Below, piece after piece: positions 20,312 through 63,298 of a stretch of DNA of 64,000 bases. The notes beneath the pieces are model-generated. The model was not told the origin of the DNA. It worked only from the letters and a program-made list of their open reading frames with translations, and did no database searches. The stretch covers positions 1 to 64,000 of the forward strand of contig CAIYRR010000072.1 in the NCBI GenBank assembly GCA_903928745.1. Reading direction: 5' to 3'. Within the stretch, counting starts at the first letter, position 1, and every line of letters starts with the position of its first letter. The position numbers were made by a program, and so were the translations under genes. Source of the DNA: an uncultured Actinomycetes bacterium (GTDB taxonomy: Bacteria; Actinomycetota; Actinomycetes; Nanopelagicales; Nanopelagicaceae).

Positions 20312-20428
20312 CCAGGTCACGAGTTCCAGGTATCAGCCCCGGCTTACTGGACGGCAACCCTCCATCGCGGCGGGGTGCTCTGGGTGAAGACCAGGTCGGC
20401 AGTTCTACTGCCCGGCAAGTGCGGAAGG
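20312..20428 (+). promoter_or_regulatory. SAM-IV riboswitch upstream of metX
   Basis: The segment carries, in order, a GGTCACGAGT opening, AGCCCCGGCTTACTGG, ACGGCAACCCTCC, CGGGGTGCTCTGGGTGA, a closing GACC pairing with the opening GGTC, and then a short hairpin (GGCAGT/ACTGCC) followed by CGGCAAGTGCGG. This order, including the extra 3' hairpin and GGCAAG, matches the SAM-IV class known from Actinobacteria. Binding of S-adenosylmethionine should shut off methionine synthesis. The metX Shine-Dalgarno GGAAGG (20423-20428) lies at the 3' end of the element, suggesting translational control. Confidence 0.9.
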
Positions 20429-59031: not shown

Positions 59032-59583
59032 TTAGGTAGTAGACAGGACAAAGTCAGTATTTTCGCGCGTTTTGTCTTGCGAGAAGTGCGCATCCTCATC
59101 CATTTGCCATTGGAGCATCTGTGCAGTAATTGCTTGACCATCTCTTTCAAGTACTCGCTCTAGACCCAATTCTCGATCCACGTCCAACCAAATTGTTGCC
59201 GTGGCATACTCACGCACAATCTCTTGTGCACTCGCTACTCCTTCAAGGATGAGGAGATCGCACGGAGTAATTTCCTTAGAGGAATCAAAAGATTGCGCGG
59301 TCCAGTTGTAGATGGGCAACCACTGAGTTTTCTCTTCGGAAAGCCCTTGCAATAAATCGTGAAGTTTTTCCGTCAGAGAGAAACTCAGTGCGTTCTCCCA
59401 ACCATCATATATTTCATCAAGGTGGATGACGGTCACGGTGCGATCTTGAGCAAGAGCGAGGAAAAGTTCATGTGCCAAAGTAGTTTTTCCCGAACCTGCC
59501 CGACCGTCAATTGCAAAGACGTGAGTAGATCCACATCGCGCTGGCGAAGAAAGCAAATCTTCAAGTGCTCCAACTAAGTGCAT
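59032..59583 (-). CDS. Uridine-kinase-like P-loop kinase in a TPP-controlled operon
   Basis: The 183-residue protein has a Walker A GRAGSGKT at about 27-34, a DEIYDGWENAL segment (usual phosphate-acceptor Asp region of uridine-kinase-like enzymes), PIYNWTAQSF and a later LEGVASAQ and DVDREL. It belongs to an actinobacterial uridine-kinase-like family. It starts four bases after the pnuT-like gene and should be regulated by the same TPP riboswitch. The substrate could be thiamine or a precursor, trapping it inside the cell as NadR does for PnuC; this is inference and a true nucleoside kinase is also possible. Confidence 0.75.
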   Translation of the reverse strand: MHLVGALEDLLSSPARCGSTHVFAIDGRAGSGKTTLAHELFLALAQDRTVTVIHLDEIYDGWENALSFSLTEKLHDLLQGLSEEKTQWLPIYNWTAQSFDSSKEITPCDLLILEGVASAQEIVREYATATIWLDVDRELGLERVLERDGQAITAQMLQWQMDEDAHFSQDKTRENTDFVLSTT

Positions 59584-59587
59584 AGTT

Positions 59588-60172
59588 CTATTCTGCCTTC
59601 TTTAACCATGTCCGCCAGCCAGCAGCGGCAATTCCCACGAAGATAAGATAAAGAAGAGCAGTGAGGTACTGACCACCATGAAAAAATTGATAGGTGTAGA
59701 CGCTATCAACGACAAACCACAGTGGCCAGGCCTCGTATCTTTGTAGGACCATGAGGATTTGGGCGATAGTGCTTCCAACAAATCCAAATGCATCCGTCAA
59801 CGAAGCTGCAGCACCGATTTTTTTGAGAACTGGATAGAGAGCGCCCCAGGCAACTACAAAAGTCACGCCCCAGATAAGGCGTTCCTTCCGAACCAATTTC
59901 GCTGGCGTTGCTCCTTTTGCGCCCCATCCAAACCAACCCCAAATACCACCTGCGATGAAAATGATCTGAAGAGCGGCACTAGCAAAATATTTCTCCTCCA
60001 AAAAGAGAACGCCATAGAGTGCGCTACTTATGTTCCACCAATGCCAAGTTTTACGTGGTCCAAGCACTGCCAATCCAACTCCCATAATCGAAGTTAAGAA
60101 AGCAATCAGTTCCAGGAAAGATAAGTGATAGTTCCATGCAGTAAAAACTGTGAACATGAGATCTATTTTCAT
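59588..60172 (-). CDS. pnuT: PnuC-family transporter, probably thiamine (PnuT-like)
   Basis: About 194 residues from the ATG at 60172, with six to seven hydrophobic segments and the PnuC/PnuT signature WxxW (GGIWGWFGWGAKG) after a GPRKTWHWWNISSALYG segment. PnuC carries nicotinamide riboside; PnuT members carry thiamine. The TPP riboswitch directly upstream points to thiamine. The family works as a facilitator with a cytoplasmic kinase to trap substrate, fitting the next gene. The ATG at 60172 is preceded by GGATG at normal spacing; an ATG three codons upstream, at the riboswitch edge, is the alternative. Confidence 0.85.
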   Translation of the reverse strand: MKIDLMFTVFTAWNYHLSFLELIAFLTSIMGVGLAVLGPRKTWHWWNISSALYGVLFLEEKYFASAALQIIFIAGGIWGWFGWGAKGATPAKLVRKERLIWGVTFVVAWGALYPVLKKIGAAASLTDAFGFVGSTIAQILMVLQRYEAWPLWFVVDSVYTYQFFHGGQYLTALLYLIFVGIAAAGWRTWLKKAE

Positions 60173-60185
60173 GAGAATCATCCAT

Positions 60186-60263
60186 TCCAGGTCCGCATTA
60201 CCGGACCGGTCAAACGGTCGACCTGACGATCAGGTCCTCTCAGCCACGTGGGCTCCCGTGTTT
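60186..60263 (-). promoter_or_regulatory. TPP riboswitch (THI element) upstream of the pnuT-like gene
   Basis: On the minus strand the order is CGGGAGCC, GCC/GGC small hairpin, CTGAGA, an optional extra hairpin (GACCTGA/TCAGGTC), GACCG...GTCCGGTAATGCGGAC and CCTGG. The CTGAGA and the GG-TAATG-CC style loop are the conserved cores of the thiamine-pyrophosphate aptamer. High TPP should turn off the downstream transporter and kinase. The aptamer ends at the candidate start codon, which suggests control of translation. Confidence 0.88.
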
Positions 60264-60265
60264 GT

Positions 60266-60272
60266 TACTCTA
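60266..60272. promoter_or_regulatory. Overlapping divergent -10 boxes for the TPP operon and crtYc
   Basis: The 7-bp TACTCTA reads TACTCT on the plus strand and TAGAGT on the minus strand. On the minus strand it puts the transcription start right at the 5' edge of the TPP aptamer (about 60260). On the plus strand it puts a start about 20 bases before the crtYc ATG. Confidence 0.4.
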
Positions 60273-60297
60273 CCAAGGAATTAGGCAGAATGTCCTT

Positions 60298-60630
60298 ATG
60301 GAAAAGTTTGGCTACCTAGCGATGTTGGTTTTTACTGTCGCTGGTTCTTTCTGGCTTGAAGTAGTTTTGAAGGTCGGCGTACTTCGCAGGTACAAGCGCA
60401 CATTTTTGAGTATCGCACCAGTCGCCATGCTTTTTCTTGCTTGGGATGCATTCGCCATTCACGAGAAACATTGGCATTTTGATAGCAAGCAGATACTCGG
60501 TATTTATGGGCCTTTCTCTATCCCGATTGAGGAATATCTCTTCTTTCTCGTTGTCCCACTGGCCGCCATCATGACTATCGAAGCTGTGAGAGCAGTAAAG
60601 ATCGCTTGGGTTGTTGGGGATGAGAAATGA
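60298..60630 (+). CDS. crtYc: Lycopene cyclase domain subunit, CrtYc
   Basis: This 110-residue membrane protein (ATG 60298) has three hydrophobic segments and the motifs FLAWDAFAIHEKHWHFD and PIEEYLFFLVVP, which are typical of the small heterodimeric lycopene cyclases of Actinobacteria. With CrtYd it cyclises the ends of lycopene to beta-carotene. A longer frame extends 12 codons upstream but overlaps the promoter and aptamer region. It overlaps crtYd by four bases. Confidence 0.88.
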   Translation: MEKFGYLAMLVFTVAGSFWLEVVLKVGVLRRYKRTFLSIAPVAMLFLAWDAFAIHEKHWHFDSKQILGIYGPFSIPIEEYLFFLVVPLAAIMTIEAVRAVKIAWVVGDEK

Positions 60631-60917
60631 CGTACACGATCATTGCCATCACCGCCTTAATGTGTGCAGCGCTAGCGGATCTCTTTCTTTTCAAAACGCG
60701 ATTGTTGCAGCGCAAAGTTTTTTGGACCTCTTATGCCATCATCTTGCCTTTTCAACTCTTGACAAATTGGTGGCTTACCTCGCGCAACATTGTGATGTAT
60801 AGCGATTCGGCAATAATCGGAGTTCGGATTGCATCTGCTCCATTAGAGGATTTGTTTTTTGGTTTCGCTTTGATCCTGAGTGTTCTCGTCGGATGGGTCT
60901 ACCAAGGTAAACGCTGA
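60627..60917 (+). CDS. crtYd: Lycopene cyclase domain subunit, CrtYd
   Basis: The 96-residue membrane protein has three hydrophobic segments, NWWLTSRNIVMYS and ASAPLEDLFFGFALI, the second-half motifs of heterodimeric lycopene cyclases (PxE(E/D) motif shared with CrtYc). It works with CrtYc. Its stop overlaps the 3' end of the convergent crtB by 19 bases. It could instead be an epsilon- or C50-cyclase subunit (CrtYe/f), but no elongase is nearby. Confidence 0.87.
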   Translation: MTYTIIAITALMCAALADLFLFKTRLLQRKVFWTSYAIILPFQLLTNWWLTSRNIVMYSDSAIIGVRIASAPLEDLFFGFALILSVLVGWVYQGKR

Positions 60918-61813
60918 CGAGCTTTTAGCGCTTTTGCGTAGGCAATAGTTGCCACTCGAAGTCTCCTGGCCAAGGATGTCGTTGCTCGTTTATTGAAAAT
61001 GTCATAATCAATCTTTTCTACTTCATCCACTATTCCGCAGTAGAGCTCGCTCGCGGCTTCAATACATGGCCGACTTGTTGGATCCAGAAATGCGATTCCC
61101 GGATCAGCAACAGATTTGAGGTCACGAACACGAGAAATCTGTGCCTTCAGCGCAGAGATAATTTCGGGAGTGAGTTGGCGCTTATAGAGCATTTCCTTAT
61201 CCACGCCATGTTCTTTCAATTCCGCCATGGGTAGATAGATGCGTCCACGATCTAAGTCTTCGCCAACATCTCTAATGAAATTTGCTAATTGGAAAGCAAC
61301 TCCTAAAGTTTCTGCAGGCTTGTAAGCCTCTTGTGTGAGTGCGCCGAGAATTGGAACCATTTCCAACCCGATTACAGCCGCGGATCCGTAAACATATTTC
61401 ATTAAGTCTTCGTAGGTCTCATATTCACTCACTCGCAAGTCCATTTTCATGGAGTTCAGAAAGGCTTCAAAGTGCTCATGCGGAATGGAGAATCTTTGGA
61501 CTGTATCGATCAAAGCTTTGGCAACATGGTCATCGCTTTTTCCAGTTTTTAGACTTTGCAGAACAGAATTACCCCAAAGCTCGAGCTTCTCTTCCTTTTG
61601 GTTTACCGTGAGAGTGGAAGCAAGGTCATCAACGATTTCATCGGCATAGCGTGCAAAGCCATAAAGAGCATGAACAAATGGGCGCTTGGCTTTAGGTAAG
61701 AACAAGGTCGCAAGAAAGTAAGTCTTGCCGTGCAATGAGTTGAGTCTTTTACATTCTGCATAGGAGGCTCGCAATTGCGGGTCAGTAATTCCTGCTGCAG
61801 ATAATTCATCCAT
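60899..61813 (-). CDS. crtB: Phytoene synthase
   Basis: The 304-residue trans-isoprenyl synthase has both aspartate-rich motifs (YADEIVDD and RDVGEDLDRGR) and the phytoene/squalene synthase segment LGVAFQLANFIRDV. It condenses two geranylgeranyl diphosphates to phytoene. It follows crtI with no intergenic space (stop of crtI at 61814, start here at 61813) and is the last gene of the crtE-crtI-crtB operon. Confidence 0.93.
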   Translation of the reverse strand: MDELSAAGITDPQLRASYAECKRLNSLHGKTYFLATLFLPKAKRPFVHALYGFARYADEIVDDLASTLTVNQKEEKLELWGNSVLQSLKTGKSDDHVAKALIDTVQRFSIPHEHFEAFLNSMKMDLRVSEYETYEDLMKYVYGSAAVIGLEMVPILGALTQEAYKPAETLGVAFQLANFIRDVGEDLDRGRIYLPMAELKEHGVDKEMLYKRQLTPEIISALKAQISRVRDLKSVADPGIAFLDPTSRPCIEAASELYCGIVDEVEKIDYDIFNKRATTSLARRLRVATIAYAKALKARQRLPW

Positions 61814-63298
61814 TTATTTCACCGGACCCACGATGCGCTCTGCAGCGAGTCTTCCCGAAATTAAGACCATAGGCACCCCAACTCCTGGTTGAGTGCCAGA
61901 GCCAGCAAAGACGACGTTTTCAAAACCTTGGGCGAGATTTCGCGGGCGAAATGGTCCCGTCTGCATAAATGTGTGTGCACTTGCAAATGGCGCACCGCGT
62001 TCCATGCCTTGTGCTTGCCAATCCAGGGGAGTGGTCATGGATTCGACTTCGATGGAATCCCCAAAACCTGCGTAGCCTCGAGATTCCAAAGTGGCAATCA
62101 TCTTCTTGCGGTATGGCTCTGCTTGCTTAGTCCAGTCAATATCGGCGTCGAGATTTGGCGTAGGAAAGAGAACGTAATAGGAATGTTTTCCTGGTGGTGC
62201 CAGAGTTGGATCATCCTTTGATGGAACCGTCACCAAGACGCTTGGGTCGCTCATCAAAGTTTTCTTATTTATCAGTTCATCGAACACGCCATCCCAGGAC
62301 TCGCCAAAGTGGATGTTGTGATGTGCGGTGTGTGCGTACTCCTTATTAGACCCAACCAGCAAAGTCACACATGATGGAGAGTATTTCAGTTTCTTAATTT
62401 TGTTTGGCACATGTCCTAATAAATCTCTCCATGCAACAGGTAGATCAGGGTTGAGGACTAGAACATCGCATTCAATGCGCTTATCCGTATCTGTGATAAC
62501 TGCGTGAGCGCGACCATTCTTGTAATCAATCTTAGTAACGCTGGTGTTGTAAATAAACGTGACTCCGTGCTTTTCTGCTGCAGCGGCTAGTGCACGAGGC
62601 AGTGCATGCATTCCGCCTTTCGGAAAGAAAACTCCATTAACCGAATCCATGTACGCAATCACTGCATAAATTGCTAGCGCCTGTTGAGGGCTCACGCCCG
62701 CGTACATTGCCTGAAAGGAATAGACCTTCTGCAGACGAGGGTCCTTAAGGAATTGATTTACCTTAGGTGCAAGTTTGCGAAAACCGCCCAGTGCGATCAA
62801 GCGAGCAAGGTTGGGAGTCAAGAGGTTGAACGGAGAATCAATGTTGCGGTCAATAAAATCATTCATCTCGTATTTATATAGTTTGGTGACGAAATCAACA
62901 TATCGCGCATAACCTTGTGCTTCGCTTGGACTGATTGTCCGAGCAATTTCTTCTTGCATTTGTTCAGTATTTGCATGGACATCTAATTGCGATCCATCTG
63001 CATAGAAAGCTCGGTATAGCGGAGTAACGGGCATAAGCTCGAGCCAGTCTTTCAATTCCTCACCCACGCTGTTGAAGGCATCGTTAATCAAGCTGGGCAT
63101 TGTGAGAACAGTGGGGCCAGTATCAAAGGAGTAACCATCTTTAAGTAATAGGCCATTGCGACCGCCTGGCACGCTTTCGCGCTCTATGACGGTTACTTTG
63201 CGACCAGCACCGGCTAATCGAAGGGCAGCGCTTAACCCTGCCAGACCAGCTCCGACTATTACTACATGATCGGTTGGTCCCTTAACTTGAGCAACCAT
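61814..63298 (-). CDS. crtI: Phytoene desaturase CrtI
   Basis: The 494-residue FAD enzyme has the nucleotide-binding motif VIVGAGLAGLSAALRLAGAG (13-32), the ERESVPGGRNG segment, and a C-terminal QPGVGVPMVLISGRLAAE. It desaturates phytoene to lycopene in four steps in the membrane. It follows crtE and abuts crtB. Bacterial-type CrtI; length normal. Confidence 0.94.
   Translation of the reverse strand: MVAQVKGPTDHVVIVGAGLAGLSAALRLAGAGRKVTVIERESVPGGRNGLLLKDGYSFDTGPTVLTMPSLINDAFNSVGEELKDWLELMPVTPLYRAFYADGSQLDVHANTEQMQEEIARTISPSEAQGYARYVDFVTKLYKYEMNDFIDRNIDSPFNLLTPNLARLIALGGFRKLAPKVNQFLKDPRLQKVYSFQAMYAGVSPQQALAIYAVIAYMDSVNGVFFPKGGMHALPRALAAAAEKHGVTFIYNTSVTKIDYKNGRAHAVITDTDKRIECDVLVLNPDLPVAWRDLLGHVPNKIKKLKYSPSCVTLLVGSNKEYAHTAHHNIHFGESWDGVFDELINKKTLMSDPSVLVTVPSKDDPTLAPPGKHSYYVLFPTPNLDADIDWTKQAEPYRKKMIATLESRGYAGFGDSIEVESMTTPLDWQAQGMERGAPFASAHTFMQTGPFRPRNLAQGFENVVFAGSGTQPGVGVPMVLISGRLAAERIVGPVK

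Follow-up and report, generated by a model that had tools for sequence, protein, structure and literature searches.

The window analysed here, a stretch of 64,000 nucleotides from an uncultured member of the Nanopelagicaceae, carries a gene for a PnuC-type transporter on its reverse strand, a P-loop kinase gene directly downstream and a TPP-type RNA in front of both. The locus raises the question of which compound the kinase phosphorylates. An earlier note on this DNA had proposed thiamine or one of its precursors, brought in by the transporter. We consider it probable that the two genes form an operon for thiamine import and trapping, that a variant riboswitch of the TPP family controls it, and that its kinase is a new thiamine kinase of non-orthologous type. 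The analysis shows the gene content, the conservation of the pair, the patterns of gene replacement, the kinase fold and, by covariation, the RNA structure.

The acI lineage represents the most abundant bacteria of most freshwater lakes (Kang et al., 2017; PMC5301498). That paper describes acI as auxotrophic for thiamine, finds a PnuC-like protein with a THI element in each of the four strains, and reports nearly all enzymes of thiamine synthesis and salvage as missing. The gene content of the window's own genome fitted this description. Among 151 Nanopelagicales (acI) genomes, thiamine-phosphate kinase (ThiL) was present in 149, and thiamine-phosphate synthase (ThiE) was strong in only six. 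The catalytic domain of thiamine pyrophosphokinase (ThiN/TPK, PF04263) was found in none of the 151; the same search detected it in the positive controls (Bacillus, Bacteroides, and others). These genomes thus do not hold the normal thiN with thiE that the earlier note had named as counter-evidence. ThiL acts on thiamine monophosphate (ThMP), which is supplied either by ThiE or by a thiamine kinase. With ThiL but without ThiE or TPK, some 145 genomes must therefore depend on a thiamine kinase, for which there was previously no gene.

ThiK of the E. coli kind (TIGR02721) was considered as the missing kinase and rejected. It was found at cut-off in none of 31 relatives. Sub-threshold matches occurred in genus g1, where they lie divergently beside a large oxidoreductase gene; by sequence they resemble choline kinase, and no such match was found in several complete genomes (G017, G027, G030, and G053).

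The two genes of the pair and the 4 bases between them were as the earlier note had described (Table 1). The transporter of 197 aa matched NMN_transporter (PF04973) at 117.5 bits (cut-off 27.3) and TIGR01528 at 67.4 bits, and its translation likely begins at a conserved ATG rather than at the first position of the ORF. Its linkage to the riboswitch and the auxotrophy of the host suggest that it is specific for thiamine, and PMC5301498 draws the same inference for the acI PnuC-like protein. A second, distant PnuC-like protein of the same genome (G000:C85:3658-4209; 46 bits with the PnuT profile) is possibly a transporter for another vitamin. Two ORFs with lycopene cyclase domains lie next to the pair (60262-60917, +, divergent from pnuT, and 60899-63298, -), and they adjoin phytoene synthase and phytoene desaturase-like ORFs in a carotenoid cluster.

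Table 1. Positions of the features of the pnuT-kinase locus in the window, and of related gene pairs in other families.
Feature	Position	Strand	Basis
Variant TPP-family riboswitch	60168..60261	-	RF00059 39.2 bits; R1 91.3 bits; alignment of 57
-10-like promoter element TAGAGT (TANNNT)	60267..60272	-	76/79 related loci
J3-2 pyrimidine-binding T-loop CTGAGAGG	60236..60243	-	Invariant in 57/57; residues U39-A43
Closed P4/P5 arm ACCGGTCCGGTAATGCGGACCTGG	60187..60210	-	Without U59, G60, C77, G78, A80 of the canonical pyrophosphate sensor
Shine-Dalgarno-like GGAATGG, abutting P4	60182..60188	-	Sequence; putative role
pnuT-type thiamine transporter gene (predicted)	59588..60181, likely start 60172	-	NMN_transporter, TIGR01528; relatives in 135/151 genomes of the order
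Proposed thiamine kinase gene (uridine-kinase-fold P-loop protein, PRK06547-like family)	59032..59583	-	Pfam PRK, NF005115; 145/151 genomes
pnuT + AAA_28 gene pairs with TPP-type riboswitch, families f32/f34	L189:3464-4656; L190:4121-5262; L191:4336-5483		

The kinase of 183 aa belonged to the PRK/uridine kinase family (PF00485; 39.3 bits, cut-off 22). Its structure model had a mean pLDDT of 94.2, and the best PDB matches of the model were uridine-cytidine kinases (TM-score up to about 0.74). The Pfam score and these matches identified it as a P-loop kinase fold with a Walker A motif. It matched NF005115 (the PRK06547 family) at 98.5 bits, under the family cut-off of 173, and it was below the cut-offs of the uridine kinase equivalogs TIGR00235 (46.4 against 220.3 bits) and PRK05480 (48 against 180 bits); ThiK was absent among the 25 NCBIfam matches listed. 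In an alignment of 26 such kinases, Walker A, D56, Y59, G61-W62, W94, E114-G-V, W132, and R147-D148 were invariant. The YDF...HxR stretch of the Thermus uridine kinase was replaced in all 26 by (F/Y)(D/N)W with neither His nor Arg, which argues against an ordinary uridine kinase. The protein therefore has the P-loop fold, Walker A and the EGV and RD motifs in common with the PRK06547 family and the uridine kinases, but it is set apart from them by its score under the family cut-off, its DxxYxGW and (F/Y)(D/N)W motifs and its lack of the uridine-type HxR. A role of the conserved tryptophans in stacking on thiamine is no more than conjecture. To our knowledge, the uridine-kinase fold includes no thiamine kinase.

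The kinase was found in 145 of the 151 Nanopelagicales genomes and PnuT relatives in 135. In all 134 genomes holding both, the two genes were adjacent on the same strand, with a median gap of 10 nt. Within Nanopelagicaceae, most of this adjacency goes back to a single inherited arrangement. A pnuT-kinase pair of the Nanopelagicaceae type was also present on a contig (CALPKA020000091.1) assigned to a Bifidobacterium breve MAG, and this contig was probably misbinned. Nine genomes without PnuT carried ThiB (TIGR01254, 208 bits) together with further ABC genes (ThiBPQ), and the kinase was kept in all nine. Where their loci were read, it occupied its old slot between the carotenoid (crt) genes and pknL, and the canonical TPP riboswitches found in these genomes stood before the ThiB gene. 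Genera g1, g4, and g9 hold both PnuT and ThiB genomes, which indicated several swaps. A tenth genome (G044) had the kinase and a YkoE-type protein (PF09819) linked to a TPP riboswitch.

The four genomes with ThiE in which no thiamine importer was recognised (G035, G060, G111, and G134) had no kinase. Canonical riboswitches stood before their thiE/thiO loci; G035 and G060 also had one before the gene of a CytX-type permease. In G035 and G134, thiE, thiO, and thiG were located between the crt genes and a pknL-like gene (L043 and L044; L043:4973-8259), which is the slot taken by the pnuT-kinase pair in their auxotrophic relatives. The crt-pknL region is a thiamine locus where synthesis and uptake replace each other. 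Three further genomes were exceptions: G133 had no kinase and its pnuT was at a contig edge, G141 was 79% complete and had no kinase, and the kinase of G135 was at a contig edge. The agreement between importer and kinase over the 151 genomes gave a Fisher p of 2e-7, which overstates independence because the genomes are related. With one inherited arrangement and the four kinase-negative genomes in just two genera, the independent events are few.

Another explanation is that the enzyme is a kinase of nucleosides or other small molecules, which lies beside pnuT merely through the conserved crt-pknL region. The kinase does stay in this slot when pnuT is gone, its fold and its closest solved structures are those of uridine-cytidine kinases, and its family is widespread in Actinomycetes outside this setting. 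A class-level genome search detected the family in 227 genomes out of 346 from Actinomycetes, and in most cases neither thiamine genes nor a TPP riboswitch lay close by; in high-GC genomes, where longest-ORF calling made the neighbourhoods poorly readable, tblastn with thiamine proteins was used. As the family is mostly far from thiamine genes, its ancestral role may have been different or broader, and the wider family may include more than one substrate. We nevertheless regard a nucleoside kinase as improbable at this locus. Its presence tracks thiamine import and its absence tracks ThiE without a thiamine importer, the Thermus uridine kinase stretch has lost its His and Arg, and ThiL would be left without a substrate in about 145 genomes. 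Moreover, the pair was also found in another neighbourhood. In two genomes of family f39, pnuT and the kinase gene were adjacent, with a variant RNA in front, next to genes read from their sequence as a short-chain dehydrogenase and a 2-oxoglutarate-dehydrogenase-like protein. The adjacency, the lack of which the earlier note held would count against it, is therefore conserved both within the order and outside its usual setting.

Families f32 and f34 showed a different partner. There, pnuT had a TPP-type RNA in front and was followed by an AAA_28 gene resembling the NadR kinase domain, and in f34 this pair, too, was located directly before a PASTA protein kinase gene. The AAA_28 protein is a non-orthologous replacement of the kinase and unrelated to it. 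It probably represents another thiamine kinase of non-orthologous type, which annotation may now easily assign to the metabolism of nicotinamide riboside. Together with the f39 pair, this indicated that a thiamine-controlled PnuT is partnered by either of two kinases that are unrelated to each other. Synteny alone was rejected as the cause of the adjacency on the basis of the f39 pair elsewhere and the alternative kinase in f32 and f34.

The transporter might also bring in the precursor HMP or thiazole alcohol, which the kinase would then phosphorylate. In two small-genome lineages (G338 and G198), relatives of the kinase stand beside an ABC binding protein of the NMT1/THI5 type, and this favours precursor salvage. 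NMT1/THI5-type proteins are a broad family that includes pyrimidine-precursor binders. Given this breadth and that no TPP riboswitch was found in the G338 kinase-NMT1 locus, the operon there is only suggestive as thiamine evidence. In small actinobacterial genomes, a PRK06547-like kinase was located beside or inside an operon with such a binding protein at L166:1718-3097 and L167:3383-6842. Precursor salvage is very unlikely at the pair studied here. In 145 of the 151 genomes there is no ThiE, by which HMP-PP and thiazole phosphate could be joined, and the genomes that have ThiE and the HMP-type permease CytX are those without the kinase. Since precursors cannot be joined without ThiE, the candidate substrate was narrowed to thiamine. 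Of the earlier proposal, the thiamine part thus gained support from gene content and pairing, and the HMP or thiazole part became very unlikely. It is hardly probable that PnuT imports ThMP or TPP directly or that ThiL accepts thiamine, with the kinase unrelated: this would also explain ThiL without ThiE, but the characterised PnuT transports thiamine (PMC5613172, citing heterologous expression), ThiL would be dispensable under TPP import and yet is kept in 149 genomes, and the pattern of the kinase and the NadR-like kinase by pnuT elsewhere would have no explanation.

For the import-and-trap operon, we infer the substrate and product of the kinase and the direction of regulation as follows. 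PnuT would admit thiamine down its gradient, and the kinase would use ATP to convert it into thiamine monophosphate, which is unable to exit the cell. ThiL, which is encoded elsewhere, would then phosphorylate the monophosphate once more, yielding TPP. The kinase would stand in for ThiK and thiamine pyrophosphokinase, both of which are missing in these auxotrophs.

PnuC-NadR is a system of nicotinamide riboside uptake with a trapping kinase. Like the arrangement proposed here, it combines a facilitator of the same transporter family with such a kinase; the vitamin, the kinase family, and the regulation differ, and in f32 and f34 it is a NadR-kinase-like AAA_28 protein that accompanies pnuT. 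In Bacteroidetes, pnuT is paired with tnr3, whose product Tnr3 is a thiamine pyrophosphokinase (PMC5613172). This operon also has a PnuT gene linked to a TPP riboswitch and followed by the gene of a thiamine-activating enzyme, whereas the partner in the window is a uridine-kinase-fold P-loop protein, ThiL is present, and no pyrophosphokinase was found. The acI PnuT with its THI element in PMC5301498 is of the same lineage, with the same transporter and riboswitch position and with reported auxotrophy; the available text of that paper reports near-total loss of salvage enzymes and describes neither the kinase nor an altered riboswitch. The principle of pairing a transporter with a kinase is thus already known, and what is new is the type of kinase. 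No description of this kinase type or of the altered switch was found in the literature searched. If the proposal is true, one protein of 183 residues would close the previously unexplained route from imported thiamine to TPP in acI auxotrophs, and vitamin B1 would gain a kinase from a fold without a known thiamine kinase. It would also point to a role for some members of a family that, in the majority of Actinomycetes, is labelled only hypothetical protein or kinase, and it would mean that PnuT recruits unrelated kinases.

The RNA in front of pnuT had been described in the earlier note as a clear TPP riboswitch. A TPP-family RNA is indeed present and conserved there, but it is a degenerate variant and not a clear member of the family. 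At Rfam gathering scores, cmscan of the whole window found only a SAM-IV riboswitch (20315-20427) and no TPP riboswitch. The SAM-IV riboswitch was a strong match (95.9 bits, +). The RNA at 60167-60269 (-) matched the TPP model (RF00059) at 39.2 bits, below the gathering threshold of 54.3. Among 19 related loci examined, 18 had a TPP-family match of about 32-44 bits in the corresponding position in front of pnuT. In general, the PnuT genomes of the order had only weak matches (about 28-46 bits), directly before pnuT, and the riboswitches near or above the TPP cut-off were found in genomes without PnuT. Our own model (R1), which was built from 57 such RNAs, scored the copy in the window at 91.3 bits. 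The first idea that the weak score marks a decayed relic was opposed by covariation and by the fixed position of the promoter. In 76 of 79 related loci, a TANNNT element preceded the CGGGAG of the RNA by 6-10 nt, mostly by 8; shuffled sequences gave an expectation of 13.4 such loci and at most 25. This fixed position suggested that the transcript probably starts at P2, with no P1.

The variant RNA apparently has no P1. P2/P3 carry an invariant CUGAGAGG loop, P3a is an additional stem, and the J4/5 internal loop is missing from P4/P5. The T-loop UGAGA of J3-2 was invariant in all 57 variants, and the role of its residues U39-A43 in the TPP riboswitch has been described (PMC3764141). In the canonical riboswitch, U59, G60, C77, G78, and A80 are among the highly conserved residues, and G78 contacts the pyrophosphate directly (PMC3764141). 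The canonical pyrophosphate-sensor motifs were found in none of the 57 variants but in every one of the 14 canonical riboswitches that were read in this order. The P4/P5 internal loop was instead closed by covarying pairs (118 double-change cells in the 57 variants, with 0 of 500 shuffles as high); alignment columns 88 and 106, for example, paired as AU in 36, CG in 9, and GC in 8. The variant therefore shares P2, P3, the invariant CUGAGA T-loop, the L5 UAAU loop, and the place before a thiamine transporter gene with RF00059, but it has lost the five sensor residues to this closed arm and lacks a conserved P1.

The RNA is thus a conserved and probably translational switch with an altered ligand site. 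Its 3′ end abuts the Shine-Dalgarno-like element, and it would lower translation when the thiamine compound that it senses abounds. The variant raises the question of whether a TPP aptamer without the pyrophosphate sensor still works. One speculative answer, which we hold to be rather unlikely, is that the leader senses free thiamine (or ThMP) instead of pyrophosphate; it would then be a naturally re-specified TPP riboswitch that places the importer under the control of the very compound it brings in, with the new-class thiamine kinase pulling that compound to TPP. The same loss of the J4/5 loop was observed before cytX-type HMP transporter genes in family f14 (L192, L193, L194, L196, L206, and L207) and before thiO in family f33 (L199 and L211), which lowers the likelihood that the variant is specific for thiamine alone. 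These sequences suggest multiple losses of the pyrophosphate sensor in Actinomycetes.
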